A DNA stretch of 64,000 nt from Capsaspora owczarzaki ATCC 30864 (lineage: Eukaryota; Opisthokonta; Filasterea), in NCBI RefSeq assembly GCF_000151315.2, contig NW_011887310.1, positions 1,599 to 65,598 on the forward strand. The letters are read 5' to 3'. This document shows positions 6,205 through 59,700 of this stretch, one piece after another. The notes under the pieces were generated by a model that had not been told where the DNA came from, made no database searches, and was given only the letters and a program-made list of their open reading frames with translations. Numbering within the stretch: position 1 is the stretch's first letter; each line of letters begins with the position of its first letter. Position numbers and translations under genes: made by a program.

Positions 6205-6438
6205 GGGGGCGTCGGACTGTGGAAATGAGAGAAAAAGGCGGGAAAAATTCAATCCAAAGCGCGCGCTTTGTTTCGATGTTGTTCCGCATCCACGCGGTCC
6301 CCACACGCACACTTCTCTTCCCGTCCCCGCTCCTCATCATTTTCCGATGTAGGGTACACCGACGCACACCCCACATGTGAAATAGGGCGAACTACCCGTC
6401 GTCACACGGAGATGGAGACTGAATTAACCAAAACAAAT

Positions 6439-6515: not shown

Positions 6516-9500
6516 TCAAAGCATCGCACCAATTTCGCGGCTGCTCGTCCCGCCATCAATGCTCTTCATGGCTTTGACAAGCTGAGAAAAGCTCGGTCGG
6601 TATTCCGGGGTAATGTTCCAGCAACTCATCATCATGTTGTAGAGCTCTGGCATGCAACTTTCTGGCTGGGGCAGACGACCACCAGCCTGCACATGAGCCA
6701 GCGTATCCATGCCGTTCATCTCACCGTACGGCCTTGCGCCGTAACTAGAGCATTCCCCTACCAACAAGCACCAACGCAAGTGAGATGCAAGCACATAGTT
6801 CACGAGCAAATGGCACGCTCTACTCACAGGCTGTCACACCAAACGACCAAACATCGGACATGGTCGAGAACTTTCGGAAATTCAGTGTTTCCGGTGCCAT
6901 CCACTACAAATGCAAAGTTCAACAAAATCAGCGTCAGGCCAGCAAACAGCAACCTCGTTCACACCCTCAACTAACCTTCACGGGAAGTTTGCCACGCGTT
7001 TGCATTCGATAATAATCGTTCTCGTCGGCCAGCTCGCGAGAAAGCCCAAAATCAGCAATCTTGACCACCATTCCTTGTCCTACGAGACAATTGCGCGCGG
7101 CGAGATCACGATGCACAAAGTGGAGCGTACCCAGATACTCCATGCCAAGTGCAATCTGGCGAATGGCATGGATCTGCTCGTTCTGTGTCCACTCGAACGA
7201 CTGCTTTTTGGACTTTTGCAGCAGCGTCCGCAAGTCGCCGTACTGCACGAATTCAAGCAGAACGAGGTGCGGCTCTGACTCGACAAGAGCCGCGAGCAGG
7301 CGCACGACATTCGGATGCACAAATGGCGCCATCAACTTGGCCTCGCTCTCAAAGTCCTTGCGGGATTTCTCGTCTGCATCAGACTTGAGAGACTTGACGG
7401 CAACTTGCACGGATTCGGAAACTGTAGGTCCAAGCAAGGCTTGAGCTCGTGGCGGCAACACGTTGGACGGCACTTGCCCAAGGGATACATCGCCAAAGTT
7501 GCCACTAGCAAGGTGCTTCACAATGGTCAAGCCTTCACGAATGCGACGAGAGTTGCTGCCAGCGACATACGCGCTTGCATAATCGTAGACCACCTCTGGA
7601 GAGGTACTAGTAGTCGAAATGGCCTGGTAAACAGGCTCTGGCTGTTTTTGACCGACCGCAGCGTAAGCAGCGATGTCCTCGTCTTTGTGAGATCCGATTG
7701 CACGGGGCAGAGGAGAGATTGTCATTTCCACAGCCTCTTGATAGATGGGACCAGCAGAGTCCTTTGGTCGTGCAACTGAACGTCGTTGCGAACGCCGGCG
7801 TCGCAACACAATGAATACGATTGCAAGCATCGCAATAACTGCAACAGAAGCGACGGCAGCAGCGATGGCAGCAGCTGGAGATGACGATGAGTCTTGCGAG
7901 CCGCCTCCACTGCCGTTTTGTGCAATAGAGGACGCAACAGATGCAGCAGACGCCGATGCTGTCGACGCAGTAGATGCCGAAAGCGCCGAGGTGGCGGAAA
8001 CAAGCGACGCAATCGAGGCAGAGGCGGCTGAGGCAGCGGAAGCAGAAGCGAAGGAAGCAAACGAAGCCGACAGAGCAGATTGAGCAGAGGCGGTCGATGC
8101 AGTCGCGCCTGATGCAGCTAAAGCAGAGACGATGGAGGCAATCGATGCGTTGGTGGCGGCCGATGCGAGGCAGTAGCCGACCATCATAACATAGTCATCA
8201 TAGCACTGAGTGCAGGGATTGGTCGAAGTGCAGGTCAGACAATTGGTTGCACAACACGCACCAGACCCAGCGGCATAGCAGGTGGCACAGGCTGTATCAC
8301 ATTCTGCAATACAACAAGTCAGTGTCATAGTGTCATGCTCACAAACGAATTACAGTCATCTCGAACACTTACTGTAGGGCTGGGATGCACTGCCGTACGT
8401 GCTTGGCGGCGCGAGAGTATTCTCACCAAAAGTCAAGTTGTTGGGGCTCAAATATGGAAACGAATACGACAGACTCAAGGCATTTTGCAGGCCCTTGAAC
8501 AGACCAGGCGGCAAAGTGGTGAAGGGATTGTCGTTCAAAGTCCTGCAAGGACCGCAATGTAAAAGTCAAGTCGATTGTGTGCATTCATGAGAGCTTTGCT
8601 TACAAGTAAGTCAGTGCAGTCAAGCCTGTGAATGTGTTTGCAGACAGGCTGCTGATCTGGTTGCTGTGCAGAGCCCTGTAGATGGAATTGCGAACGGGTG
8701 AGCCAATTGTGAATGATATTCTTCATGTTGTTGACTGCGTACAATTGCGCCAGCAAACTCAGGTCCGTCAATGAGGCGGATATGCTGGTAATCTGGTTGT
8801 TGAACAGATTCCTATGAACAAAAACAACAACAAAGAATCGCAATGGAGTGAGTCGATGATGTGATTCTTCGTGTCCTTGCTCGCTTACAACACGGTCAGC
8901 ATGGTCAGGCCGGTGAATGCGTCTGCGGGAATACTGGTGATTTGGTTGGCGTCCAGTCGCCTGCAGCAATCGTGTCGCAAAACGAGTGAGCCGTTTGGTG
9001 CGACTTTTACGCACTGTGCTGCCAACCTACAGGTAAGTTAGCGCACTCAGGCCTATGAATGCATTTGCAGAAATGCTGGTGATCTGATTGGAGAATAGGT
9101 GTCTTCAGAAAGTATCGCCAACGAGTGAGCCGTTTGTGTGACCGAATTCATAGTCTTTGTCTTTGCTTACAATTGTGTCAGCGCAGTCAGACTCGTAAGT
9201 GCGGAGACGGGAATGCTGGTGATCTGGCTCTGACCCAAATGTCTACAGACAGAGTCAAACCGAGTGAGATGCGATTTGGGTGATTCTTCATCTGGCCTTG
9301 TATGGCTTTGCTGGCTTACAGAAGAGTTAGCGCAGGCAGGCCTGTGAATGCGTTGGCGGAAATGCTGGCGATCTGATTCTGATTCAACCACCTACAAGTT
9401 GCGTCGCCAGCGAGTGTGAGCCGGTTGGGTTTGATTCTTTATGCTGTTGCTTGCTTACAATTGTGTCAGCGCCGTCAGGCCTGTAAATGAGTCAGCGGGA

Positions 9501-11345
9501 ATGCTTGTGATCTGGTTGGTGTTCAGAAACCTGTCGACCAGTTGCCAATGAGGAGGGGAATGCTTCAGTTCAAGGTCCATTGAATAGGAACCACTGACAG
9601 AATCGTTGTGTTGACTGGAATTCCGCTTGGAATCGTTGGGAGAGATTTGCTACCGCAATTGACAGTCGTTCCCGAGCAAATGCAAACGCCGCCAGTTCCA
9701 CACGCAAGCGGCACGCATGATCCACTAATCATCAAAAAACCGTCATAGCACTGTGTGCACAAAGACGATGAAGTACAGAACAGACAATTGTTCGGGCAAC
9801 ACGAGCTGGACCCAGCGGCAAAACAGGTGGCGCATGCTGTATCACACTCTGGGGTACAAAAAATGTCAGTGTCATGCTCGCAACAGAATTGCAGTCATTT
9901 TGGAACTTTACTGTTTGGAGCGGATACAGTGCCATACGTGCTGGGCGGAGCGACAGTGTTTCCAAAGGTAAAGTTGTTGGGGGCCAGGTATAGGTTCGAA
10001 AGCGACAACGCCAAGCCATTTGGCAAGCCCTTGAACAGACCAGGCGGCAAAGTCGTGAGGGGGTTGTCATTCAAAGCCCTGCACGTTCCGCAAAGTCAGA
10101 GGCGACTCAAACACAACATGCACCTTGAGCTCTGTGCCTACACTCTAGTCAGCGCAGTCAGGCCGGCGAATGTGTTTGCAGAAATATCGACAACATGGTT
10201 GAGATGCAGGTATCTACAGATGGAGTTGCCAACGAGTGAGTTGTTTGCATGTGATCCTTCATGTCGTTGCTTTGCTTACAAGAAATTTAACGCAGTCAGA
10301 CCGGTGAATGCACTTGCAGAAATGCCAGTCAGCAGGTTCTGATTTAGATATCTACAGATAGTGTCGTAACCGAGTGAGCCATTTGCAGGCGATTTTACAT
10401 GTCTTGGCATGCTTACAGAGAAGTCAGCGCAGTCAGGCTGGCGAATGTATTTGCGGAAATATCGACAATCTGGTTGGCATGAAGATATCTACGGATGGAG
10501 TTGCAAGCGAGTGAGCCATTTTGCGTGTAATTCTGCATAGATTTGCTCGCTTACAAGATAGACAGTGCAGTGAGACCTGTGAATGTGTTGGCGGGAATGC
10601 GAGTGATCTGGTTGCCGTTGAGATATCTATCGATAGAGTCGCAAATAGTGAGTCGTTTGCGGGTGATTCTCCTGCCGAGGCGTGCTTACAAGATTTTTAG
10701 TGCAGTCAGGTCGGTGAATCCTGACGTGGCAATGCTGGTGATTTGATTGGCTTGCAGATATCTGCAGATGAAGTCCCCCCCCCCGCCCCCCAACGAGTGA
10801 GTCAGTCGTGAGTTTCTTCTTTCGTTGCGCGCTTACAATTGCGTCAGCGCAGTCAAGCCCGCGAATGCGCTTGCAGAAATGCTGGTGATCTGGCTGTTGG
10901 ATAAATCTCTACAGATGGGGTTGCAAACAAGTGAGGCATTGGAGTGTGATTCGCCACCTATTGTGCTTGCTTACAAATCAGTCAGCGCAGTCAGGCCTGT
11001 AAATGTGTTTGCAGAAACGCTGGTCATCTGGTTGCCGAAAAGAGATCTATTTCGAAAAAAAAAAAAAAAAAAAAAAAACGAGGTTATTGACCAGTCAGCC
11101 GGTTTCGAGTGATCTTCCTGCAATTGCTTTGCTTACAAGATTGTCAGGGAAGTCAGGTCTGCAAGCGCAACAGCGGGAATACTGGTGATCTTGTTGTTGT
11201 AGAGATGCCTACAAATAGTGTCGCAAACGAGTGAGCAGTTTATGCGTGAGTCTTCATGGCTTGGCTTACTTACAGGATGGTCAGCGCAGTCAGGCCCGTG
11301 AATGCCGACGCAGGAATCCCGGGGATATTGTTTTCGGGCAAAAAC
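6516..11345 (-). CDS. Receptor tyrosine kinase with two tandem LRR/Cys-rich ectodomain modules (5' end in gap)
   Basis: Exons in plus coordinates: 6516-6757, 6828-6903, 6976-8303, 8373-8542, 8604-8675, 8743-8811, 8889-8960, 9031-9102, 9171-9242, 9320-9391, 9459-9530, 9599-9848, 9912-10078, 10142-10213, 10280-10351, 10417-10488, 10555-10626, 10690-10761, 10837-10908, 10975-11046, 11137-11208 and 11274-11345. Together they give about 1127 in-frame codons. The signal peptide and first LRR-N cap should lie in the N-run at 11400-11569. Module 1 has nine LRRs, a C-cap and a Cys-rich exon; that exon fuses directly to a second LRR-N cap (CGTGGVCICSG). Module 2 has seven LRRs, a C-cap and a second Cys-rich block. 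A Ser/Ala-rich stalk, a transmembrane helix (AVASVAVIAMLAIVFIVL) and RRRR follow. The kinase shows VAVKSL, HRDLAARN, DFGLSR, paired activation-loop tyrosines (NDYYRM) and KWMAPET. The glycine loop reads ASGNFGDV, so the first Gly is Ala. Juxtamembrane tyrosines include IYQEAV, YAAV and VYQAIS. The stop is 45 bp from a transposon. Confidence 0.88.
9599..9848 (-). other. Chimeric exon joining Cys-rich block to a second LRR-N cap
   Basis: This 250-bp exon begins like the last exon of the sister receptors (CDTACATC...CTQCYDG...SGSCV) and ends like their first exon (ACGTGGVCICSG...VNTTIL). It has no signal peptide at the junction. It is the seam of an internal fusion between two ectodomain units. 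Confidence 0.8.
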
Positions 11346-11399
11346 CTATCAAACCGGATGCCAAATAAGGAGGGGCGAAGGTTAAATTCAAACAAAACG

Positions 11400-11569
11400 N
11401 NNNNNNNNNNNNNNNNNNNNNNNNNNNNNNNNNNNNNNNNNNNNNNNNNNNNNNNNNNNNNNNNNNNNNNNNNNNNNNNNNNNNNNNNNNNNNNNNNNNN
11501 NNNNNNNNNNNNNNNNNNNNNNNNNNNNNNNNNNNNNNNNNNNNNNNNNNNNNNNNNNNNNNNNNNNNN
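11400..11569. other. Assembly gap (N-run) hiding the receptor kinase first exon
   Basis: 170 N. The flank at 11581-11619 resembles the sequence just upstream of the sister receptor's ATG (42682-42715), so the missing ATG is predicted just inside the right edge of the gap. Confidence 0.9.
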
Positions 11570-12686
11570 AAGCGAATCCTTGGGTTGTCATTCTGAATCA
11601 GAGACATTCACGGTTCAAAGTGAGCTCCCGGCGTCAAAGCTTTGAGCAACAATCAATCGCCACATCGCATTGTTGCTCGTCAGAGGCATGTTTGTGGGTG
11701 GACGGGTTCAAGCATTCGTCCAACAATGGAGCGACAGAGACAGACAGCGAGTGTGATGGCCCGCCCGCCGTGTCTTGCCTGCCTCGTCCTTCCCCTCCAA
11801 CGCGCGCACACCCCCTTCCAAGAGCGTCCACTGCTATCATTCATAGACTGTTCCCTCGAGCGAGGGGCGGAAGTCGGCGGCGGCGACACAGCATGGGTGA
11901 GTATTTTGCGTGGCTGTTCCATTGCCCATTCACGGGCCAATCGCAGCCAGGGGTCACCCCCCCCCCTCCCGCAGTTCCGCCCTCGCTCTTTGAGCAGCTC
12001 GCTGTGACAGAGACGGGGCTCATCAGAAGCGCATGGCGGTGAGGGGAGCGGGGCTGCGGGGCGAGACAGCCAGCGTGCAATGCCGCAATGCTGCAGTTCT
12101 GAGGTTCCGCCTCAGCACGCACACCTTCCTTCCTTCCCCCATTGCCGTTCATCTGCTCATTCTGCCGACTTGTTGCCACGACTGCAAATTAAGCCGAGAC
12201 AATCGACAGAGAGCAGTGGAGTTGATTTTGCTACTTGTGTTTGGCTCACAGTTCGTGTGAAAGACGATGGAAAAAAAAAAAAAAAAAAAGTGATCTAGAT
12301 TTTCAATTCGACGCGCAGCGTTTGTCAATGGTGATTGAGCGGTACAGAATTTGCAAAGCAATCCGACAACCACTTTCTCAGCTCAGCAAGCACTTCGTTG
12401 ACGGTGTGAGCATTGTTTACTTCAAATCCACATCGGTTTTGACAACTCATACACACACACACACATGCACACAACGCGTAAAACAAAGCACATACGCCGT
12501 GAATTCAAAGCCTCAAAGCAAAATCATCCATCACCGAAATAACATCAAATCCAGAACACAAACACACGAGATGCCAAACCAATTGGCCCCGTTTTTTCAA
12601 ATCTCACATTCAAACATCAGCAAAAAAACGAAAACAAATCAAACCGCACTCACACACGCACACACACAAATCTTGTCGCCAAATTA
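11570..12686. other. Intergenic between two minus-strand receptor genes
   Basis: Holds the presumed promoter and 5' UTR of the receptor kinase (11570-12000) and the 3' flank of the 7TM gene. It contains an A-run at 12270-12289 and a short CA repeat at 12449-12464. No gene was recognised. Confidence 0.5.
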
Positions 12687-25361: not shown

Positions 25362-28300
25362 ATGCTCGAAAACCTCGTCGCTGGCTTGCTCAACAAGTAC
25401 CTCGGCCAGTTCGTGCAGGGGCTGGACACCAAGCAGCTCAACCTCTCGCTCTGGAGTGGTAATCACATTTTAAACGCACAAAACTGCGCGCCCTCCCCAC
25501 CCCATCGCTCCTCATCATGCGCATAGACTCATCCTGATAAGTGACTGGCTTCTTGTGTGTGCCGCTTGGTGTCTTTGTCGGCGGCGGCGGCGGCGGGAGG
25601 GTGGCAGGGGAAAGAACAAATCGCTGAACGCATTTCGACACCCACTCCAACGTCCCAGTCATTCAGATGGATCTGCGTTGCCATACAGTATTCCATTGAA
25701 TTTGTCGATCATCGTGCAAATCTAAGACAATTGCATCGAATCTGCGCAAAACTCTCCAAATCTCAGATTTGATCGCAGTTTTGTTTCTGGTTTTTGTTTT
25801 GTTTTTTTGCCTCGCTCCTTGACTAATCCTAAATCCGCCAACTTTTTTGTTTGTTTGATTTTGTGGCATGATACAAGGCAACCTGGTGCTCGAAAACCTT
25901 CAAGTGCGCGAAACTGCATTCAGCGAGCTCGACCTTCCGATTTCAGTCAAAGCAGGCAAGTCCATCACTACAACGGAACTCTAGGATTGGCATTGCGCCG
26001 CAATTTCACAAAAAAAGCAAACTTGCGATCGGCTTTTGGCATTTTCGCGTTTCATCTGACGGGGGCGCGATGTCTATGTGTGTGTGGGGAAAATGGGGAG
26101 AACTTTTCGAAAAGCTGCCACCAAACGAACTTCTGCTCGGCTTGTCTCTGCGTCATCGGGGGGAAATACTCGCATTGCCATGAGAACGTTGTGCAAACAT
26201 CGCTGCAAGTGTGGTTGGATTGAGGGGTTTTGGTTCCGTTGCTCACCAAACCACCAACCAACCAACCAACCATCGGAAACAGGTACCATCGGCACGCTGA
26301 CACTGAAAATCCCATGGAAGAACATTACGACCGATCCCGTCGTTGTGCTGCTCGATCAAGTGCTGGTTTTGGCAACCCCGAATCTCGATCTCGATTACGA
26401 CGCCAAGCTCCAAGAACGCATTGCCGAGCGATCCAAGCGCAGCAAAATTGCCGAGTACGAGTCGCTCAAGCTTCAACGCGAGGTGCGACAGCTGTTGGAG
26501 GCTCGTTTGTTTGTGTGCACTTTACTTCATGATTCACTCTCGCTCACTCATTCTCTCACACAATTCGACTTGCTAGGAGGCGGAACTTGGCGCCCAGGAA
26601 AAGTCCGATTCCTTCGCGGTCAAGATGGCGACGAAAATCATCGACAACATTCAAGTGAAAATCAGCAACATTCACGTTCGACTCGAGGGCGACAAGATCA
26701 ACAATGCGGTAAGTTTGGATCGCAACGATTGGTTTGCCTTGTTTTCGGTTGTTGTTTTTTTTTTTCCCTTCTCTCATCAGGCCCCTCATATTGTGTTGCT
26801 TTTCGCAACTTTCTTTCGCTCGTAGCTTCCTTTCGCTGGCGGCTTGACCCTCGCTCGCCTAGACCTCCACTCGACGGACCAGACGTTCGAGATCAACTCT
26901 TCAAACACGTCGGGCGACTTGTTCTACAAGCTTGCCGTGCTCGACAGCCTGTCGGTCTATCTCAACACTGCAACCGACATGCTGAATGGCATGGCCGCCG
27001 CGCAACTCTTCCCTAAGCTTGCCAATCAGGTATTACAATTATTTTGCTAAGAGGCAAATAGATGTTGCGAGCGACTCATCGTTCGACGCTCAACCATTGT
27101 TCTCTTCTTTGTAGATCGCCCGTCGTGATCACGCGGCTCCCCACAACTACATTGTGGAGCCGATTTCTTTTACAGCCGAGGTAGGTTGAGTTGCTTGGCN
27201 NNNNNNNNNNNNNNNNNNNNNNNNNNNNNNNNNNNNNNNNNNNNNNNNNNNNNNNNNNNNNNNNNNNNNNNNNNNNNNNNNNNNNNNNNNNNNNNNNNNG
27301 GACAACATCTTATTGCATCCATAAACAGCTTCGCGTCAACCGCCACTCCGGACGCAACTTGAACTACCCCAAAGCCATCATGCGACTGGTCCTCGACAAG
27401 ATTGGAGTCGTGCTCGATCGCACGCAGTATCATACCGCACTTTCGACTGCCAACATGTTTGCTCGGCTGCTGACGACACGCTCCCACCGAAACCTGCGCT
27501 CAACGGTTGCGCTTGGAAAGGGCACTGGGAAGGTGTGGTTCCAGTACGCGGCCCGCACCGTCCTGGAGGACGTGCAACGTCGAGCCAAAGCCTGGTCTTG
27601 GCCAGCGATCAAGGCCCGTCGTGACACGCGTGTCGATTACAAAAAGCTGTACATGAGCCTCCTGACTCTACGCCAGCAAACAACGTCCGAAAAGAACGAG
27701 GCAAAGATTTTGCAGGCGCTTGAGAAAGCCGAGGAGCCCATGCATGTCGACGACGTTTTGCGCTACCGTCAGCAGTGCGACCTGCAGCTTCGCAAGGAAG
27801 AGCTCATCAAAGCCAAGGCACTTCTCCAACAGCATCAGCAAAAGCAAAGCAACAGCTCGTCCTCGTCGTCCTCTGCCGTCGCTTCTCCCGCCCCTGTGGT
27901 CACCGGCGGGTTCTTTTCCAACTTTTTCAAGAGCAAGGCCGAAAAGGAAGTGGATCGCAAGCGCCAAGAACTTGTCAACAAGCTGCACCAGCAGCAACAA
28001 CAGCAGCAAAAGCAACAACCAGAGGAAGTCACCGCCTCGTCCTCGTCTTCCTCGTCCTCGTCCTCGTCCTCGCCCTCGTCGTCCCAGATGACCGATGCTG
28101 AGCGCAAGTTCTTGTACAGCGCCATCGACTACAATGAAGACGAGGATGTCACCACCTCTGCAAGCTCTCTCCTTCCCAAAGATTACGTTGCCGTCAAGGT
28201 TGCCGTTGAGGTCGAGCGCAACCTCAGTGTTTCGATCAAGGACGGAGCAAGCACTGTTGCTGTTTTAGCCCTGGACAAGCCCGAGCTGCACCTCTTACAG

Positions 28301-37300: not shown

Positions 37301-38956
37301 ACTCCATCCGAGTCGGTTTCGCGCTCGTCCTCCCACGCGAGTTCCAGCTCTCCTGCACCTGGGAAATCCAGCTCCGCCGCGCGGTCGCCGTCGCTCGTTG
37401 GCTCGGTGCAATCTGCGACTACCACACTGGTCAGCACGGGTGCGGCGGCCATTGAGAATCCCGTGCGACTCATCTTCAAGTCGATTGGGCTGACCGTGGC
37501 TGACATTGACAATGCCCCCATCCGACTCAACGCTCTGGTCTTGACGCACGTGTTTGAATCGCAGACTACCCTTGCGGGCATTGTTGTCACCCACTACCGC
37601 GAGTACGTCATTCGAGAAGTCTACAAGGTTTTGGGCTGCTTTGATTTCCTCGGCAATCCAGTGAACATGTTTACCAATCTCAGCACCGGTGTCAAGGACT
37701 TTTTCTACGAGCCCTTCCAAGGCATCGTCAAGGGTCCTGGCGAGTTTGGTGCCGGCCTCGCTCGCGGCACTCGCAGTCTGGTCAGCGGTGCGCTGGAAGG
37801 CACGATGGGTTCGGCTGGTCGCATTACGTCGTCGCTCGGCAAGGGCCTGGCTGCCATGACCTTTGACGACGAGTATCGCGAGTCGCGTCGTCAAGCCTTC
37901 CAGGATCGCCCCGATACAGTGGCTGGCGGTCTTGCGGTCGGCGGCAAGCAGTTTGTGAAGGGCCTTGCAGGCGGTGTGGCCGGTGTCTTTCTATCCCCGT
38001 TTGCTGGTGCCAAGAAGGACGGTGTGGAAGGCTTCATGAAGGGCCTAGGCAGAGGCCTGGTGGGTGTTGTGGCCAAGACTGTCGGCGGCAAATGTGGAGT
38101 TGGACACGGGAACGCTCAAGAAGCATAGCAAACATCGCGAAGGCCGATCAACCGTAATCGAGCTCAGTCGCATACTTCGCTATAGTTTACGGTAGGTGGA
38201 AGAGGAGGGGAGGCGGAAGCCACTAGAGGGGTGTGTGACGCATAGATCAGTTATAGGAGGGAGGCGGAGGAGCGAAAGACAATAGGGGTGGATGAGAAGA
38301 CGGAGTTGCGGTTGTTTGATATTCGTTCGTGGAGCCACATAGTGATCAAGCTGACCGCAACAGCGTGAGATGAGACANNNNNNNNNNNNNNNNNNNNNNN
38401 NNNNNNNNNNNNNNNNNNNNNNNNNNNNNNNNNNNNNNNNNNNNNNNNNNNNNNNNNNNNNNNNNNNNNNNNNNNNNAGAGGACAGTCTTCTGGTGCCGT
38501 ACAGCGCGCTCGAGGCGTTTGGAGCGCACTTTCTCAAGATCCAAACTCGAGGACGGGGCTTTTAGTGCCGACGAGTATATCGCGCACCTGGCCATCCGAC
38601 ATTCGACCGGCAATCCAGACAAGGATGCCAAGGAAGGAAAGCAGACGTGGCTTGTGTTCACCTCCAGTCGCCTCATCATTCTGCTCAGTGAGAAGGATGG
38701 GCGGGCAAAGCCTGAGGCCTACGTTGCGCGCTCTCCAACTTCCATCTTTGCCGTGACACCGACACAAAATGGTGTTGACATTGATGCCGAAATGTTCAAC
38801 GCGTCCTCTGTTGTCGGAGCCATGGAGTTGTTCGGGATGGCCAAAGCCAAGCGTCGCAAGATCACCATTCCCATGACAGATGGCCCCGCCCGGCAGCTTT
38901 TGTGTCGCACATTTGCCCGTTGGATGCCTGTCGCCAAGGACTCTAGCGCGCCCTGA
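25362..38956 (+). CDS. VPS13: VPS13 bridge-like lipid transfer protein
   Basis: Exons: 25362-25458, 25878-25955, 26283-26482, 26577-26708, 26826-27029, 27115-27180, 27329-32755, 32990-33109, 33186-33311 and 33452 to about 38090, then a 3' part ending at 38956. About 3,850 aa. VPS13 proteins move phospholipids between membranes at contact sites through a long hydrophobic groove. The N-terminal chorein motif is clear (MLENLVAGLLNKYLG), followed by a long central region, the VAB/SHR-type segment (YWIVNKTSMPLAVH; FAPRHTLINHCG), the ATG2-like C-terminal helices (NPVNMFTNLSTGVKDF; EGFMKGLGRGLVGVV) and a final PH-like region (LLVPYSALEAFGAHF; WLVFTSSRLIILL). The second intron has a GC donor (25956). 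The gap at 27200-27299 falls wholly inside an intron. Near the 3' end the frame shifts around 38090-38125 and again near 38555, on both sides of the 38378-38477 gap, so the final joins are uncertain. Low-complexity Ser and Gln runs interrupt the middle. Confidence 0.93.
27200..27299. other. Assembly gap (100 N) in a VPS13 intron
   Basis: The flanking exons end and start in the same phase, so no coding loss is implied. Confidence 0.9.
38378..38477. other. Assembly gap (100 N) in the VPS13 3' region
   Basis: The coding sequence resumes immediately after the gap (EDSLLVPYS), so part of an exon or a splice site is missing. Confidence 0.9.
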
Positions 38957-39476: not shown

Positions 39477-42400
39477 CTAGTTTTTGAGTTCGGCGTAGTC
39501 GACATTCTCAGCCTGCTCGGTCTGTGAGGAGGGTGCGACAGTCACTGCTGCGTAAGGGGTGGGCGAGAACGTGGGCGGCGCACGAACATTCGATGCGTTA
39601 AGCAGTAAAGGATCCGCGTACTCGACGCCGCTACCCGACGCTTGCGCTGTACTGGATGCAGACACAGATGCTTCGGCATACACCTGTTCCGACGAACCGA
39701 CAGAAGGAGCCTGGGGCTTTGAGCCGACATCTTCGTACAAGTCGTGCTCTCCAGGAGCAGACACAGCTGCGTATGTGGGATTCGCAACATTGGACGCTCT
39801 GTGATCAACAGACTGGTAGGTCGGTTCCGTGCCAGATGCAGATTCGCGTCGTTTGTTGGCCGTGCCAATGGGTGCAAAGGCATTGGACGAGCGACGACGT
39901 CGAAGGGCCACAGCCAGCGCAGCCAACAAGATGAGTGCCAACAGACCAAGAATGACTCCGAGAATAATCGGCCAAGAATCTGAGTCACTTGAATCGTTTG
40001 GAGCATTGGACGCGGCAGATGCAGCAGATGTCTGCCACACAAAAGAAGCACTGGCAGCTGATGCAGACGCCTGGGATGCAACGGAAGCTGAAGACACCGT
40101 AGCGAGGGAAGCAAAGGATGCCGAGGAAGCGGAAGCATCGGAAGCGACAGACGCGAATGAGGTGCTTGCAGCAGATGCAATCAAAGCAGATGATGCGGAA
40201 GCGATGGAAGCAAAGGATGCCGAGGTGGCGGAGAGATCAGAAGCGACACTTGCGGACACCTGCGAGGCAATTGAGGCTGAAGACACCGTAGCGAGGGAAG
40301 CAAAGGATGCCGAGGAAACGGAAGCATCTGAAGCGGCGGATGCGTGCGACGCGCTGGCAGCAGAAGCATCAGAGGCAAACGAGGCGGACACCTCGGAGGC
40401 AACTGACGCCGAAGAGGCAGTTGCAGCGGAGGCAAACGATGCGGAGACCTCGGAGGCAATTGAGGCTGAAGACACCGTAGCGAGGGAAGCAAAGGATGCC
40501 GAGGAAACGGAAGCATCTGAAGCGGCGGATGCGTGCGACGCGCTGGCAGCAGAAGCATCAGAGGCAAACGAGGCGGACACCTCGGAGGCAACTGACGCCG
40601 AAGAGGCAGTTGCAGCGGAGGCAAACGATGCGGAGACCTCGGAGGCAAGGGACACTGATGACGCGGAAGCGATGGAAGCAAAGGATGCAGAGCTCGCCGA
40701 AACAAGTGACGCAATCGAGGCGGATTGCGTGGACGCGACGGAAGCAAGGGAAGCAAGGGAAGCAAGCGACACGCATGATCCACTCATCGGAACGTAACCT
40801 TCATAGCACTGAGTGCACACAGTGGATGAAGAGCAGTACAAGCAATTGTTCGGGCAACACGAGCTGGACCCAGTAGCATAGCAGGTGGCGCAGGCTGTAT
40901 CACACTCTGCAGTTACAACAAGTCAGTCAAACAATTCCCTGGTGATTGTAGTCATATAGGAACTTACTATATGGAGTGGCTGCGCTGCCGTATGTGCTGG
41001 GTGGAGCAACAGAGTTTCCACCAAAGGTAAAGTTGTTGGGGGCCAGATATGGGTAAGAAAACGACAACGCCAAGCCATTTGGCAAGCCTTTGAACAGACC
41101 GGGCGGCAAAGTCGTGAGGGGGTTGCCATTTAAAGTCCTGCAAGTTCCGCAAAGTCAGAGGCGAATCAAACACAACATGCACCTTGAGCTCTGTGCCTAC
41201 ACTCTAGTCAGCGCTGTCAGGCCGGCGAATGTGTTTGCAGAAATATCGACAATCTGGTTGAGATGTAGATATCTACAGATGGAGTTGCCAACGAGTGAGT
41301 TGTTTGCATGTGATCCTTCATGTCGTTGCTTTGCTTACAAGTAATTTAACGCAGTCAGACCAGTGAATGCATTTGCAGAAACGCCAGTCAGCAGGTTCTG
41401 ATTCAGATTTCTACAGATAGTGTCGTAACCGAGTGAGCCATCTGCAGGTGATTTTACATGTCCTGGCATGCTTACAGAGAAGTCAGCGCAACCAGGCCTG
41501 TGAAAGCGTTCGCAGAAACGCTGGTGATCCAGTTCCCATTCAGATATCTACATGTCGTGGTGGCAACAAGTGAGCTGTTTGTGTGTGATCCTTAATGTCT
41601 TGGCTTGCTTACAGAACTTTCAGTGCAGTCAGGTCTGCAAATGCATTGGCTGGAACGCTGGTGATCGGGCAGTATTGCAAATCCCTACAGATAGAGTTGT
41701 TAACGAGCAAGCCGTTGGTACGAGATTCTTGCCGTCTTTGCTTGCTTACAATTGTGTCAGCGCAGTCAGGCCTGTGAATGCATCGGAGGGAATGCTGGTA
41801 AATTTGTTGGAAGACAGACTTCTACAGATTGAATTGCAAACGAGTGAGCGTTTCGGTACGTGCTTTTTCCTATCTTTTTGCTTGCGTACATGAAATACAG
41901 CGCAGTCAGGCCTGCGAATAGCGAGGAGGGCATGCTGGTGATCTGGTTGGTGCCCATGTATCTACAGACCGTGTCGCCAACGAATGAGCCGTTTGTATGT
42001 GATTCTTTTCGGGTCTTCACTGGCTTACAAGAAGTTCAACGAAGTGAGGCTGGTAAATGCGGTTGCGGGAATGCTGGCGATCCCGTTGCCTTGCATATTC
42101 CTACCAGACAGTATGGCAAACGAGTGAGCCGCATTTTGGGTGTGCGGTTGGGCATGTCTTTTGCTGGCTTACAATTGTTTCAGCGCCGTAAGGTCTGTGA
42201 ATGCAGCGGCATCAATGCTGGAAATGTGGTTGTCTTGCAGAATCCTGGAGATACATGTAGTGAGGCCAATGAGTGAGCCGTTTGCGCGTGAGTCTTCATT
42301 GCTTGGCTACTGACAGGACGGTCAACGCAGTCAGGCCGACAAACGCAGAAGCAGAAATGGTGCTGATCTGGTTGTCCTGCAGATACCTAAAAATCGATCG

Positions 42401-42667
42401 TAATGGCAACAAGCAAGGTCAATTGGCATCTAGTTAACAACTTGACGACGGCAACACTTACAGTATCGTTGTAGTCGCTGGGATTGCGGTTGGAATGTCT
42501 GAGAGACCCAGGTTTTGGCAATCGACAAGCGTTTCCGAGCAACTGCATACACCGCCAGTTCCACATGCGTTGGCTGCCTGTGCCAACTGGACGTGATTGA
42601 CCACGCAGAGCAGCAGCAAAAGCAGCAGAAGCAGCAGACCAAAGGAGGAACGTCCTGTTGGCGCCAT
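39477..42667 (-). CDS. Kinase-less LRR receptor with Ser/Ala heptad stalk and seven-tyrosine tail (copy B)
   Basis: Exons: 42462-42667, 42315-42386, 42173-42244, 42029-42100, 41890-41961, 41750-41821, 41613-41684, 41476-41547, 41339-41410, 41201-41272, 40968-41137 and 39477-40906; 817 aa. It has a poly-Leu signal peptide (from MAPTGRSSFG), an LRR-N cap (CGTGGVCSCSE), nine 24-residue LRRs each on its own 72-bp phase-2 exon, a C-cap, and a Cys-rich block (CDTACATC...CTQCYEG). About 260 residues of SAS-x-AS-x heptads form a stalk. The transmembrane helix (about 653-676, ILGVILGLLALILLAALAVA) is followed by RRRR. The 140-aa tail holds TYQSV, TYAAV, LYEDV, VYAEA, EYADP, PYAAV and a terminal VDYAEL. 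VDYAEL fits the ITIM consensus and TPYAAV the ITSM pattern. No catalytic domain is present. It is likely a cell-surface binding protein whose tail is phosphorylated and docks SH2 proteins; the function is inferred. Confidence 0.88.
40270..40647 (-). repeat. Perfect-looking 189-bp tandem duplication in the stalk
   Basis: Two copies (40270-40458 and 40459-40647) read the same base for base by eye, equal to 63 residues or nine heptads. A more diverged copy begins near 40085. Confidence 0.85.
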
Positions 42668-42842
42668 CTGTTTGACGATTATGGGTTGTGAGTGGCGAGA
42701 TATTCACGGTTCAAAACAGTGCGCCAATGTCAACTGTCAACATTTTCAATTCCAAAGCGCTGAAATCCAGTCATGCAATATGACTTGGCGCATTTTTTCC
42801 CCAAGCTGTGAGGAGATAGATTGTGTGTGCGTGTCTGTGTGA

Positions 42843-42844
<2 letters not shown>

Positions 42845-42883
<39 letters not shown>
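42845..42883. repeat. GA microsatellite
   Basis: About 19 GA units followed by a G-run. Confidence 0.95.
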
Positions 42884-42889
<6 letters not shown>

Positions 42890-43672
42890 ACAGCGTGTGG
42901 CTTGGCATGTGGCGAAATGCGGGCCTTTTCTTTTGTTCTTTCCCCACCTCCCAGCTTCTCCACAGTTGCCTGCCCGCCCGCCCGCCCGCCCGCCCTTTCC
43001 TTCTGTTTTGAATCCCTTCCACTCGTTTTGTCATGCGTTGACGGACATGTGCGCAGTGTCAATCGCAGAAGCAGCAGAAAAAAAACAGTGGCAAACTGAC
43101 TGCGGAGGATTTCTGTTTCTGTTTTTGTCTGCCATTCCATTTCATTCTTGACACGACGAGAGCCCCAGCCGCAGTCGCAAGAGAGGGGGGAGGGGGCTTC
43201 CACTGTTTGCTCGCTCTGCTCCGTCGCGTCTTCTGCTTGATTCAATATCCAGATTGGTGCAACAGCGCTCAACACGGGATACGCGTGCGTGGGAGGGGAG
43301 TTGAGTGAGAGAGTGCGACCCGCACGTGGACCATCATCCACGTCGCCACACGCTCGTGTTTTGTGGTTGCTCATTGCCGCCATGTTCGCAACAGTTGCAG
43401 GAGATCAACTTTGCACAAGTTGCAATCTCATTTGACGGAGAGGCGCGAATCGCTCTTGCGGTGGGATTGACGTACTAGTGGTCAAAGCGTGAAAAAGGCA
43501 AAAAAACAAAAAAAAAAACAAAAAAAACCAACAAAAAAATCAACAAAAGGAGTGATCGCGCACATTCAGTCTCGATTTGTTCGCAATGTAATTCAGTCTG
43601 ATAGTGAAGTACCATTTGAGACGAATCAAACTCACGTGCAGCTGAGATGTTCGGGATGTGGTGATTTTTCGT

Positions 43673-43868
43673 GTCAATGCACTGACGTGGGGAAATCAAT
43701 GAATAGCGTTTAGTTGCTCGAAACAACAAGACCCGTCGAATTGAACATCAACACAAGCAGACATCAATGTGAAATGCACAAAAAGATTTGGGAATCATGC
43801 ACGGCCAGGCAGAATCTACAAAGAGGCAGATTCGGGAAGGCTTTCGGACTGCAATAACCAACAGGAAC
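43673..43868 (-). repeat. Duplicated receptor 3' flank (copy 2)
   Basis: Partner of 39275-39476; differences are scattered single bases and small indels. Confidence 0.85.
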
Positions 43869-43869
43869 G

Positions 43870-46761
43870 CTAGTTTTTGAGTTCGGCGTAGTCGACATTC
43901 TCAGCCTGCTCGGTCTGCGAGGAGGGTGCGACAGTCACTGCTGCGTAAGGGGTGGGCGAGAACGTGGGCGGCGCACGAGCAGACGATGCGTTAGGCAGCA
44001 AAGGATCCGCGTACTCGACGCCGCTACCCGATGCTTGCGCTGTAATGGATGCAACCGCAGATGCTTCGGCATACACCTGTTCCGACGAACCGACAGAAGG
44101 AGCCTGGGGCTTTGAGCCGACATCTTCGTACAAGTCGTGCTCTCCAGGAGCAGACACAGCTGCGTATGTGGGATTCGCAACATTGGACGCCCTGTGATCA
44201 ACAGACTGGTAGGTCGGTTCCGTGCCAGATGCAGATTCGCGTAGTTTGTTGGCCGTGCTAATGGGCACGAAGGCATTAGGTGAGCGACGGCGTCGAAGGG
44301 CCACGATCAACGCAACCAGCAAGAGGAGGGCAAACACGCCACCAATCACTCCGCCAATAATCGGTCCAGACGATGCATCACTTGACTCGTTTGGAGCATT
44401 GGACGCAGCAGATGCAGCAGATGTCTGCCATGCTGATGATGCACTAGCAGCTGATGCAGACGCCTCAGAGGCAACAGAGGCTGAGGACTCTGTGGCGAGG
44501 GAAGCAAAGGACGCCGAGGTCGCGGAAACATCGGAAGCGAGAGATGCGTACGACTCGCTGGAAGCTGATGCAACGGAAGCTAAAGATGCAGCAGCGATGG
44601 AAGCGATGGATGCTGAGGTAGCGGAGACTTCCGAAGCAGCAGATTCTGAAGAAGCGCTGGCAGCAGATGCAATGGAAGCAGATGATGCGGTCGCAAGGGA
44701 AGCAAAGGATGCCGAGGTAGCAGAAACCTCAGATGCGACAGATTCTGATGAGGCGCTGGCAGCAGATGCAACAGAAGCTGAAACTTCAGTAGCAAGGGAA
44801 GCATGGGACGCCGACAGAGCAGAAGCGGCGGACACAAGGGAAGCAATCGACGCAGAGGCGGTAGAGGCAGTCGCATCAGATGCGGCTGAAGCGGAAGAGA
44901 CGGAAGCGACTTCAGCAGACGCGACGGAAGCGACGGAAGCTGAAGCGGCGGAAGCGAGCGACACGCATGATCCACTCATCGGAACATAACCTTCATAGCA
45001 CTGAGTGCACACAGCGGATGAAGAGCAGTACAAGCAATTGGTCGCGCAACACGAACTGGACCCAGTAGCATAGCAGGTGGCACAGGCGGTATCACACTCT
45101 GCAACACAACTGTCAGCGAAATGTTCTGAAGCGGGAAGCGGGGGGGGGGGCAACGACAGTCATCTCGAACACTTACTGTATGGAGCGGCTACAGTGCCAT
45201 ATGTGCTGGGCGGAGCGACATTGTTGCCATTAAAGGTAAAGTTGTTGGGGTACAGGTATGGGGGGTGTGTCTGCGACAAAGTCAAGCTATTTGGCAAGCC
45301 CTTGAACAGACCGGGCGGCAAAGTGGTGAAGCGATTGCCCTCCAAAGGCCTAAGCAAAAGCTCAAAGTAAGAGGCGGACAGGCAGACACATGCACCAAGA
45401 GCTCTTGCTTACAGATAAGTCAGCACAGAAAGACCCGTGAATGTGTTTGCAGGTATTTCGGTGATCCTGTTGAGATTCAGATAGCTAGAGATAGAATTTG
45501 CAATCGAGTGAGCCATTTGCGTGTGATTTTGCACAGCTTTTGCTTTGCTTTGCTTACATGGTTGTCAACGCTGTCAGCCCTGTGAACGCGTTTGCAGAAA
45601 TGCTGGTGATCACGTTGAAGTACAGATTCCTACAGATAGTACCAGAATACAGTGAGCCGCTTGTACGTGATACTTCATTAACTTTGAGTTCTTACAGGAA
45701 AGTCAACGCAGTCAGGCCAGTGAATGCAGTGGCAGGAATGCTGGTGATCTGGTTGGTTGTCAAATCCCTACCAAAACCAAAGAAAAAATGAACAAAAACA
45801 AAACGAGTCGGCCAACGACGTACTCGTGACTCATCCTGTCTTTTGCTGCTTACAATTGTGTCAGCGAAGGTACAGCTGAAAATGCATTGGAGGGAATGCT
45901 GGACAACTGGTTGCCGGACATCCCTCTAGAGATATAATCGAGATCGAGTGAGCTGTTCGTACATGATTGTTCCCGTCTTTTGCTGGCTTACATGTAATTC
46001 AGCCGAGTCAGGCCTGCAAATGCAGAGGAGGGAAACGCAGTAATGTCGTTGTCGTGCAGATATCTACAGAACGTGTCACCAAGAAGGGGTGAGCTGTTTG
46101 TGCGTATTTCTTCAAGCCGCTGCTTTGCTTACAAGTATTGCAACGCAGTGAGAGCTGTGAATGCATTCTCGGAAAAGCTGGTAATCAGGTTGCCATACAG
46201 ATTCCTACCGATTGAATCGCAAACGAGTGAGACATTTGGATTTGGGCAGCATGGCTTTGGTTTGCTTACAATTGTGCTACCGCAGTCAGACCTGTGAATG
46301 CAGAGGCATCAATGCTCGTGATCTGGTTGCTGAACAGAATTCTACAAAGAGAGTCGCGCATACGAGTGAGCCGTTTGCATGTGAGTCGCTTCACCAGTTT
46401 GCTCAGCGTACAGGTTTGTGACGCGAGTCAGGCCTGGAAATGCATTTGCAGGAATGCTGGTGATCTTGTTGTTCTGCAGATACCTGTTAAACCGTGTGCT
46501 AGTCAGAAACAGATATGCGGGGTTTTTTTTGCTTCGAGCTCAAGCTCATAAAGGCAACACTTACAGCATCGTTGTCGCAACTGGGACTGCGGTTGGAATC
46601 TCGGTGAGATTCTTGTTCATGCAATTGACTGTCGTTCCCGACGAGCAATCGCAAACGCCGCCAGTGCCACATGCATTGACTGCCTGTGCCAACTCGATGC
46701 GATACATCACGCAGAGCAGCAGCAGAAGCGGCACACCAAAAGCAAGTCCTCTGGTTGCCAT
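43870..46761 (-). CDS. Kinase-less LRR receptor with Ser/Ala heptad stalk and seven-tyrosine tail (copy E)
   Basis: Exons: 46565-46761, 46412-46483, 46270-46341, 46133-46204, 45992-46063, 45854-45925, 45696-45767, 45558-45629, 45413-45484, 45177-45349 and 43870-45098; 724 aa. Signal peptide MATRGLAFGVPLLLLLCVMY, LRR-N cap (CGTGGVCDCSSG), eight LRRs on 72-bp phase-2 exons, C-cap, Cys-rich block, shorter Ser/Ala heptad stalk, transmembrane helix (IIGGVIGGVFALLLLVALIV) and RRRR. The cytosolic tail is almost the same as in copy B with all seven tyrosine motifs kept, whereas the LRRs differ clearly and one repeat is absent. Conserved tail plus variable ectodomain suggests different ligands feeding one signalling output, or recent gene conversion of the 3' end. 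No enzyme domain. Confidence 0.88.
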
Positions 46762-47294: not shown

Positions 47295-47365
<71 letters not shown>

Positions 47366-56787: not shown

Positions 56788-59700
56788 TCACCAGTCATCG
56801 TCATCTTCAGCTCCGTCATCATCCGGGGGCACCTCGTACGTGGCACCTTCATCCTCGTCGTCATCGCGGGGCTGTTCGTACATCGGGGCACCGTCGTCGT
56901 CGTCATCGTCATCGTCTGGCGGGAGCTCATAGGGCCGCGGTTCGTCCACATCCGAGTACTCGGCCTGTGCGTTGACAATGGGATACATGGTCACAGGGGG
57001 CTTGTAGCCAGGAGGAGGGTTGCCGTGAATGTCGGTGACGTAGGTTGATGGGAAGACGCCGACTTTCATCGATTTGCCAATGATGCGACCCTTCCACCAC
57101 CCAGAGTCCTCCATTTCGTGCACCTCGATGGAATCTCCGATCGACAGCTCAAGTTCGTCCGGGTGCTTGGCCTGGTACGAATACAGCGCCTGAACAACCG
57201 GCTTCTGGTCTTTTGACCCAATGCCTGCATCTGCAGACGTCTGTCCCAATTTTGCAGCTGCTCGGAGAGCGGCTGTGCCAGCAAGCGGCTTAGATGAGTC
57301 TGTTCCTGGTGCCTTGCCAGTTCCAGGCCTCGGCGCAACCCCAGGACCGGCTGTGCCGATTGGCTTTGGAGCGACGCCAGGGCCAGCAGAGCCGATCGGC
57401 TTGGGCGCCCCGGGACCAGCGGGCTTTGGTGCCGCGGGACCGGATGGCTTTGGTGCCGCGGGACCAGCGGGCTTTGGTACCGCGGGACCAGAGGGCTTCG
57501 GTGCAGCGCCAGGACCAGCGGGCTTTGGTGCTACGGGTGCAGGCGCTACCGGGTTCACTGGTGACGATGGCAACTTACGCTCGGGAACGGCTGGTTCGTG
57601 AACGCCTGGAGGAAGCGGTGCCGTGAATGGCACGGGAACCTTGGTCTGCCCAGTCGAAACGGGCGCTCGAGGGGCTGAAATGCTTGGTTGTGGAGCAGGA
57701 GCAAGCCGCCTGGGGACGGTGGCCTTGAGTGAAAAGTCGAGCTGAGTAAAGTGTTGCGCGAGCGACTCCCGCAAGTAGTACGCAATCAAGTCTTGCACAG
57801 ATGGGAAGACTTTGGTGTCCGCCAAGCAAAATCCCGCGCCATCCGGACCAGGCTTGATGCGGACGTGCTTGAGGCCAGCCGCAGTGTTCAAGGACAGAGT
57901 GCACCCTGTACCTGTTTCCGATTGCCGCACCAAAAATGTACCAGGCGTTTCGTTCACCAGCAAATCGTGCGTCTGTACCTTGGAAATCGGTCCGTGGAAC
58001 CAGCTATAGCCCTCCAAGTCGCTCGAGGACGTTGGCGACGTTGCCGTGGGGCGAGGTGGTTGAGGAGCAGGAACGGGTTCTGGTGCCGGAAACCGCCTGG
58101 AACGCACGACATCCACAACAACATCAAACAAACAAACAACGCAACCAGAAGAGTGAGACACAAAAAACACACGCAACAACAAAAAAAAACAGATGGACTC
58201 ACGTTGAACCAGTTGGCTTGATTGGTGCAGGTTGAACAAGGACGGCAGGAAAGTATCCTTGACGGCCGCGGACAGAGCCAAGCCACCAATCTTCAGTGGT
58301 GCGCTCCAGCAACATGACCGTGTCGCCAACAGCAAAGTCGAGCTCGTCATCGTTGCTGGCGGCAAAATTCTCGACGGCAACAAAGGCGTCACCCGACTCG
58401 CCCTCGGGAGCAGCAACTGGCTGAACTTGGGGTTGCACCGGCTGGTTCGCTGGGGGCGGCTGATAGGGAGCCACTGGCGGGGGGAACAGGCCGGTGACGT
58501 TTGGACGGGGTTTGACAGCCGGACCAGGACGCGGCGACAGATCGGCAGTGGGGCCGTTTGGATCAGTGACGGCCGCCCCGCCCGTTGCTTTGCCCACCGT
58601 GCCTCCTCCTTTGACCTTGAGCCACGTGCGGGCCTTGGCAGTGAGGCTTCCGCCCTTGATGTCGGCGCCGTCCAGATTGTTGGCGTGCGTAAGGTGCTGG
58701 CGCGTCTCGGAGCAGTAAGGGTGGATCAAACCGATGCACTTGAGGTGAATGTCCACCATGCACACTTGACAGCGCAAGCCTTCGCCCCAAATGTAGGCAT
58801 GGCAGTAGAGGCAGCTCGCCTTGGGCATTTGCTTGTGGCGCTTGTACATGTGCTTTGATCCCTTGTGGATGCCTTGCGAGCTAGCCGCGTTCTCCAGCTC
58901 GGTCAGGTCATTCACAATCTTTTTGAGGACAGACAGCCACACACGCTTGGTCTCCTGCGTCTTGGCCATGAAGAGACAGTTCTGGGAATTGTCGGCCGTC
59001 TTGAACGACCAGGCATGAATCGGCAGACCCGGCACGGCGGCCACGTCTTCCAGCGTGCCGCCAACCAGGTTGAATGTCTTTTTAAACCGGTACTTGCTCG
59101 GCGAGATGATGCTGCATACAATGAGCGCCGTCTCAAACAAAAAGATGTAGCGTTGCTTGGGCTTGCTGTCGTCCTTGGTGCGGATTTCCAGATCGCCGTC
59201 GCGCAAGAGTTTTCCGTAGCTGATGAGTGGACCCTGTTGGAGAGAGCGAAGAAATACGAAACGAGTCAGGGAAATTTCCCGTCGGCAAGCCATCAGTTAG
59301 TCTCCGCAACACCAACTGCACATTGGAAAACTGTCAAACACTGGCCCGCCGATTCGTCTTACCGTGTCGCCCTCAATCCTGGAAAAAGCGCGGCACGGAA
59401 CGAAATTGGAAACAATCACAGCACAAACCAAGCAAGAACGGAGGTTAGAACGCAGATGCAGACACAAACGGGGCCCCTCAATTGCCAGAGTCATCATGCA
59501 GGTATGTGTTCTTCTTTTTTTTCTGTTCTGTACATGTCTGTCAGGTTGGCAGCGAGCGCCAAGTACTCTTTATCACGCTTGGTATCGTTGATGAACGTCG
59601 CCACACTCTCCATCGCCGTCATGGCTGCGGTAATGTTGTCAGAATCGGGATGAGACTCTGGCGTGCACTTCCGAAGCTCCTGCATGGTGTTTGAGGGATT

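Follow-up and report, generated by a model that had tools for sequence, protein, structure and literature searches.

Kinase-less leucine-rich repeat receptors with tyrosine-rich tails in Capsaspora owczarzaki: a family of candidate docking co-receptors

The DNA studied here is a 64,000-nucleotide stretch of the Capsaspora owczarzaki genome (contig NW_011887310.1), called the window below and used for all plain coordinates. It carries two genes, A and B, arranged in tandem on the minus strand, that encode leucine-rich repeat (LRR) membrane receptors with multi-tyrosine cytoplasmic tails and no kinase domain. Both belong to a Capsaspora family of 35 tail loci, about 29 of which are open where read. 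As judged from sequence comparisons, receptor tyrosine kinases (RTKs) about as numerous as this kinase-less family share with it a diversified, exchangeable ectodomain of LRRs and a Cys-rich block. We propose, at a probability of roughly 0.6, that the family members are phosphotyrosine docking co-receptors paired with the RTKs, which would tune or redirect the kinase signal. Within this proposal we infer the phosphorylation of the tails, the pairing of SH2 domains with particular sites, the joint engagement of receptors and RTKs, and the direction of the output.

Gene models and the tail family

Gene A (39477..42667, minus strand) was modeled as 12 exons encoding 817 residues with no internal stop (exons 1-6, 42667-42462, 42386-42315, 42244-42173, 42100-42029, 41961-41890 and 41821-41750; exons 7-12, 41684-41613, 41547-41476, 41410-41339, 41272-41201, 41137-40968 and 40906-39477). 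Gene B (43870..46761, minus strand) was modeled as 11 exons encoding 724 residues (exons 1-6, 46761-46565, 46483-46412, 46341-46270, 46204-46133, 46063-45992 and 45925-45854; exons 7-11, 45767-45696, 45629-45558, 45484-45413, 45349-45177 and 45098-43870). Full gene models were confined to these two genes. Both models are open and in phase, all introns are GT-AG introns of 61-86 bp, and the outer ends of the pair fall exactly at 39477 and 46761. The exon plan is shared. Exon 1, encoding the signal peptide and N-cap, is followed by 72-bp exons in the same phase, each encoding one LRR (nine in A at 41201..42386, minus strand, with LRRs of 24 residues, and eight in B), then by a C-cap exon and a long last exon encoding the Cys block, a Ser/Ala stalk, a membrane helix and the tail.

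On the minus strand of gene A, the splice model places the Cys-rich block at 40758..40906, the stalk of 262 residues at 39972..40757, the transmembrane helix PIILGVILGLLALILLAALAVAL at 39903..39971 (hydropathy 3.1) and the cytoplasmic tail of 141 residues at 39477..39902. The stalk of gene B has 195 residues, its helix lies at 44296..44364 by hydropathy and its tail, also of 141 residues with seven tyrosines, at 43870..44295 (minus strand). Both stalks are 36-38% Ser and 32-35% Ala. Internal near-repeats are present in the gene A stalk (40250-40760, minus strand), and stalk length differs widely among family members. Hydropathy analysis gave for each protein an N-terminal hydrophobic stretch and a single strong internal helix (residues 654-676 in A and 561-583 in B) with RRRR after it; in A, a short second stretch within the LRRs (windows from residue 76) was barely above the cut. 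Pfam assigned LRR_8 to the gene A ectodomain (5e-70), and the best 60 of its 280 PDB matches were headed by the IGF-binding acid-labile subunit, LRIG1, LGR4/5 and TLR3. The Pfam scan of the gene A tail found no family and thus no TIR domain of the Toll-like receptor type, and ectodomain and tail together gave LRR families only, with no SH3 or FAT-like domain of the BCAR1 type. From splice models, hydropathy and Pfam, A and B are single-pass membrane proteins without a catalytic domain of their own, and the anatomy given by an initial annotation, which had been made from the nucleotide letters without knowledge of the host and had supposed a unicellular holozoan, was right in each element (signal peptide, LRRs, Cys block, stalk, one helix and a seven-tyrosine tail). 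The host is indeed such an organism, C. owczarzaki. A 100-nt Capsaspora coWts targeting arm (PMC10959527) is matched in the genome at 100/100 positions, and a Capsaspora GAPDH primer (PMC9170242) has a single exact match, in an apparent GAPDH exon, with the second primer absent from the 301 bases examined. A 90-nt coYki arm (PMC9170242) had no match, and the two positive results were given more weight.

The same annotation had called the receptors kinase-less. The tail exon of each terminates in a stop codon, and none of the listed kinase matches is part of it; neither protein has the intracellular kinase domain of an RTK. The Pfam family PF07714, which covers Tyr and Ser/Thr kinases, gave 176 exon-level matches in the genome. 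Among the 150 listed, none lies within 6 kb downstream and on the same strand for 36 of the 37 places where a tail was found, and the exceptional tail is 3.7 kb from an RTK whose own Cys block intervenes. Splicing into a downstream kinase was rejected, as none is listed nearby.

The family search was confined to the Capsaspora genome (27.5 Mb, 29 contigs). With the gene A tail as query, 53 matches were obtained at 37 places, 35 of which had E values of 0.0061 or lower. Two weak places (C9:919299 and C11:53692; E 0.03 and 0.3) were left outside the locus set. Of these 35 loci, 25 are open from Cys block to tail and 4 from membrane helix to tail, and 6 are apparently partial or broken (C3:944, C13:81, C13:859, C9:1085, C12:88 and C11:710). 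The B tail is 93% identical to that of A over the 143-residue query. The motif order of the family is S1 EPTYQSV, S2 NPTYEAL, S3 HALYEDV, S4 EQVYAEA, S5 GVEYADPSLPNASSVR, S6 PTTYATI and, near the C-terminus, S7 NVDYASI. Several tails have a second cassette, giving up to 13 tyrosines. The motif order is mostly retained in two divergent members that share 48% identity, and a divergent member used as genome query gave no places beyond the known tail set. The initial annotation had suggested such a search for the tail motif set on the strength of a pair of genes, and the outcome, a family, is stronger than what it had claimed. Literature is cited below by PMC number; none of the listed titles and abstract beginnings names such receptors in Capsaspora, although an earlier description is possible.

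Conserved tail sites and their candidate readers

The seven tyrosine codons of the gene A tail are at 39816-39818, 39771-39773, 39735-39737, 39678-39680, 39618-39620, 39552-39554 and 39495-39497 (minus strand). The last three belong to GVEYADP, a YxxP motif (S5), to TPYAAV (S6), which resembles an immunoreceptor tyrosine-based switch motif (ITSM), and to the terminal VDYAEL (S7), which resembles an immunoreceptor tyrosine-based inhibitory motif (ITIM).

Conservation was measured in an alignment of 18 one-cassette tails, one of them from a partial or broken locus (C13:81). Tyrosine was retained at S1 in 10/16, S2 in 16/18, S3 in 18/18, S4 in 17/17, S5 in 18/18, S6 in 18/18 and S7 in 13/16. Hence four of the seven sites, S3 to S6, have tyrosine wherever the site exists. 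The site finder used on the tails is too lenient for windows without tyrosine, and only its tyrosine rows were taken. The mean conservation of the seven tyrosine columns was 0.90 versus 0.72 for the other columns (permutation p 0.003).

Motif frequencies were tested in 33 tails with 281 tyrosines (two short fragments were omitted and C3:944, C13:81, C13:859 and C9:1085 included) by fixing the tyrosines and shuffling the remaining residues 1000 times. The literal ITSM pattern, TxYxx[VI], occurred 42 times (shuffled mean 3.0, maximum 11), and Yxx[VILMF] fits 166 of the 281 tyrosines (shuffled mean 47, maximum 68). In contrast, strict ITIMs ([SIVL]xYxx[ILV]) numbered 24 in these tails versus a shuffled mean of 14.7 and maximum of 31, so that as a class they are not significantly enriched. 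An origin of the motifs by chance is rejected for TxYxx[VI] but not for ITIMs in bulk. TPYAAV and VDYAEL are present in both the A and B tails and fit, respectively, the ITSM and ITIM patterns given in PMC8631942, as had been annotated. Across the family, the ITSM half of that label stands, and the ITIM half depends on S7, one of the less conserved sites. Of the 35 loci, the terminal site fits the ITIM at 15 and is a different Yxx[ILM] at 7; a stop right behind YA interrupts it at 3, its tyrosine is gone at 5 and the whole region is absent at 5. At the three cut loci (C12:168395, C4:1267104 and C12:88238), an IA-like continuation is readable beyond the stop codon that directly follows the terminal YA.

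S5 is YxxP at 40 of 46 S5 sites. The 33 tails hold 44 YxxP motifs, one or two per tail among other motif types. As background, 13 long reading frames of the window gave TxYxx[VI] at 4/157 tyrosines and YxxP at 8/157, a small sample that includes the RTK and some frames that are perhaps not genes. The S5-S6 spacing is 22 residues in 40/41 cases, with S3-S4 and S4-S5 more variable, and S6-S7 is 16 residues in 20/25. The constant S5-S6 distance suggests that the two sites may be read together. With YEDV, YAEA, YADP (YxxP) and TxYxx[VI] as the most constant sites, the sequences favor a docking tail for several adaptors over a dedicated inhibitory one.

The genome encodes candidate readers of these sites, with 34 SH2 and 16 tyrosine-phosphatase matches counted exon by exon. 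At C13:292722-294496, a pair of SH2 matches and a single phosphatase match share a strand and stand in this order. The exon of the first SH2 match, 151 residues long, aligns end to end with PTPN11 (E 8e-89; 3e-64 with PTPN6), the phosphatase frame holds HCSAGIGRTG and later frames hold the YxN-like tyrosines of YGNI, YENL and YENI. This locus (L066, G000:C13:292400-295300) is likely a protist SHP2 ortholog with tandem SH2 domains and a phosphatase domain, and the SHP-type phosphatase that had been named as a prospective partner does exist in the genome. Closer to the receptors, a Vav-like gene on the minus strand of the window (56788-59296) has an SH2 domain found by search and is a further candidate reader; its apparent PH, C1 and two SH3 domains were judged by eye in neighbouring frames, and its end is acidic and rich in tyrosine. 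LYEDV (S3) resembles Src-type SH2 ligands, and NPxY is a ligand of PTB domains. Capsaspora also has a CRK ortholog, and the SH2 domain of choanoflagellate CRK binds phospho-YxxP (PMC5043372).

Ectodomains shared with receptor tyrosine kinases

An RTK on the minus strand of the window (6516..11592, partial model; first kinase match at 6976-7530, minus strand) has two LRR-Cys modules like those of A and B, and tyrosines in its juxtamembrane segment. Its start could not be modeled because a run of N (11400-11569) falls inside its 5' part; the other N runs of the window are at 27200-27299 and 38378-38477. A RIFIN match on the RTK frame (20.5 bits, below the 32-bit cut-off) was rejected and read as low complexity. 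The initial annotation had matched the ectodomains of A and B to this RTK, and the comparison bears this out: RTK positions 9704..10438 (minus strand) match gene A positions 40762-41497 at 88% identity over 742 bp, introns included.

The sharing extends over the genome. A query of C-cap plus Cys block gave 179 matches, exon by exon, and 81 Cys blocks were taken by hand from those listed. The next downstream element was the tail described here for 32 blocks, a kinase for 27, a second LRR-Cys module for 6 and nothing listed for 16, and 71 further listed kinase matches left this tally unchanged. A shared ectodomain is therefore joined to different intracellular modules within one genome, as in paired receptors.

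The tail is not an RTK juxtamembrane segment by another name. Juxtamembrane tyrosine motifs of the RTKs are PIYQEAV, AYAAV, PVYQAI and VVYDYASAYV, and their membrane helix differs from that of the tail family. In seven RTK juxtamembranes with 36 tyrosines, TxYxx[VI] occurred 0 times and the ITIM once, so the kinase-less tail is a distinct module. These seven come from nine RTK-type loci; L030, for which the sequence used stops within the stalk, and L029, which has no listed kinase, are not among them, and the juxtamembrane of L039 was taken from a frame other than that of its membrane helix. At L039, membrane helix and kinase are in different frames, and L029 (G000:C6:1214159 region), an RTK-type locus of decayed look, ends within the juxtamembrane. 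Truncated RTK pseudogenes were rejected as an identity for A and B, the models of which are open and the tail distinct and conserved.

A tree was built from 34 C-cap-Cys sequences; in it, the 10 modules of RTK type, from nine genes with L029 classed by its juxtamembrane alone, do not form a clade (approximately unbiased test, p 0.008), and the RTK label changes 8 times versus 8.9 times in shuffles; this tree is weak, with 22/31 inner branches open and the bootstrap unsettled. Gene A is a mosaic, with a tail region 85% identical to that of B and a C-cap-Cys region 88% identical to the RTK; most other blocks shared by A and the RTK have 70-77% identity. Among comparisons of 27 kinase-less with 9 RTK-type loci, only three blocks of at least 150 bp reach 85%, two of them short. 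Recent exchange is thus apparent for A and the RTK in this window.

Possible roles of the tails

In the docking scheme that we favor, a ligand or a neighbouring cell would unite a kinase-less receptor with an RTK or a Src-type kinase, and that kinase would phosphorylate the receptor tail in trans. CRK would then dock at GVEYADP (S5), an SHP2-type phosphatase at TxYxx[VI] (S6) plus the terminal VxYxx[IL] (S7) where present, and a Src-type SH2 protein perhaps at LYEDV, and the docked SH2 proteins would tune or redirect the RTK signal.

Several observations weigh against this scheme. Five Arg columns (0.94) are conserved above the Tyr columns, S1 keeps its tyrosine in only 10/16 tails and the S2-S3 spacing is likewise fairly constant (12 residues in 24/32). 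At 13 of 35 loci the terminal SHP2-type site is absent or impaired, and six of the 35 loci look partial or broken. Motif counts are not independent because the paralogs are related, and gene conversion may have contributed to tail conservation. Endocytic sorting would also account for the YxxPhi pattern, and NPTY is compatible with PTB or clathrin signals. A search with the Pfam PTB (PID) family was silent everywhere, and it is uninformative on PTB binding because the controls also gave no match.

A tentative alternative is that these are dedicated inhibitory, checkpoint-like receptors, in which the ITSM-like and ITIM-like sites would bidentately recruit the SHP2-type phosphatase and so dephosphorylate co-engaged RTKs. 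The 42 literal ITSM patterns, the terminal ITIM at 15 loci, the encoded SHP2-type phosphatase and the ectodomains shared with RTKs are all consistent with it, and an amphioxus LRR receptor (PMC8211107) gives a precedent. We do not prefer a purely inhibitory reading for two reasons: 13 of 35 loci have lost the ITIM-like site, have it cut or lack it, and SHP2 in animals frequently promotes RAS/ERK signaling, so that SHP2 binding alone would not mean inhibition. Relative to PD-1 and BTLA, the order of the two sites is reversed. The bulk ITIM count falls within the shuffles, and the two sites are 16 residues apart (20/25) rather than 25 as in PD-1 and BTLA (PMC8631942).

Less probable is a role in adhesion or endocytosis, the tyrosines serving traffic through NPTY and YxxPhi as phosphorylation-free sorting signals. 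YxxPhi is the AP-2 endocytic sorting signal, and the hydrophobic +3 residue at 166 of 281 tail tyrosines agrees with this, as does S2, which keeps an NPxY-like sequence with Phe in the 2 of 18 tails that lack Tyr. However, S4 (YAEA) and S5 (YADP), which have Tyr in every aligned tail that has the site, are not YxxPhi, and to our knowledge sorting needs neither the fixed S5-S6 spacing nor Thr at position -2 of S6. Endocytic signals alone were rejected since S4 and S5 are left unexplained. It is very unlikely that the receptors are decoy or dominant-negative RTKs, former kinases whose kinase exon is gone and whose sole role is competition for ligand: the ectodomain is the same, the two types are intermixed in the tree, and L029, with its early end and no kinase match listed after it, indicates that RTK decay does occur, but the tail with its own membrane helix and motif set over 35 loci differs from the RTK juxtamembrane, and a conserved tail would be superfluous in a passive decoy.

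The docking reading can be set beside known systems. PD-1/BTLA-type receptors have Ig ectodomains, and their ITIM precedes the ITSM. Like A and B, they combine TxYxx[VI] and [SIVL]xYxx[ILV] in one tail in an organism with an SHP2-type phosphatase, and their tails recruit SHP2 (PMC8631942). In the Capsaspora tails, the ITSM-like site comes ahead of the ITIM-like one, and there are five further conserved sites. Amphioxus BbLcLRR is likewise a membrane LRR receptor, and its ITIM or ITIM-like tyrosines act when phosphorylated; phosphorylation by Lck and association with SHIP1/SHP were tested there (PMC8211107). BbLcLRR is a single animal immune receptor, whereas the Capsaspora receptors are a protist family known from sequence. 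The paired receptors CEACAM1 and CEACAM3 similarly join similar outer parts to different cytoplasmic modules in one genome, but in Capsaspora the counterpart of the kinase-less receptor has a tyrosine kinase of its own (PMC5112662). Choanoflagellate transmembrane proteins with YxxP repeats, and BCAR1, share with A and B the YxxP sites and a CRK ortholog in the same organism; the ectodomains of the choanoflagellate proteins differ and BCAR1 has more YxxP per protein (6-25) than the Capsaspora tails (PMC5043372). That paper also refers to transmembrane proteins of Capsaspora, some of which carry YxxP repeats, and this family might be among them. The comparison with animal immune receptors made in the initial annotation holds as an analogy of logic and does not make the Capsaspora receptors members of that class.

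In PMC5043372 (2016), the pre-metazoan substrates of FAK, SRC and ABL were termed unknown. The present family supplies about 30 concrete substrate candidates with predicted sites and predicted partners (the SHP2-type phosphatase and CRK), in an organism amenable to transfection and gene disruption (PMC6001378, PMC9170242 and PMC10959527). It makes testable whether docking at the receptor level, and perhaps the control of receptor kinases by a phosphatase, was present before animals arose, and whether a diversified receptor repertoire acts in recognition in a single-celled animal relative. A bolder and doubtful extension is that the roughly 30 kinase-less receptors and about as many RTKs, drawing on one diversified and exchangeable LRR pool, form a pre-animal paired-receptor system, in which the kinase-less half would recruit the SHP2-type phosphatase and CRK via phosphotyrosine sites of fixed spacing. 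If so, that half would decide whether recognition of self, non-self or prey has a positive or a negative sign, and immune checkpoint logic would be older than animals or have arisen independently.

Two features flank the genes discussed. Directly downstream of the RTK, a frame at 5086-6333 (minus strand) resembles, by eye, a Tc1/mariner-type transposase. Long (AG)n simple repeats lie upstream of gene A (near 42843-42886) and of gene B (47297-47363).

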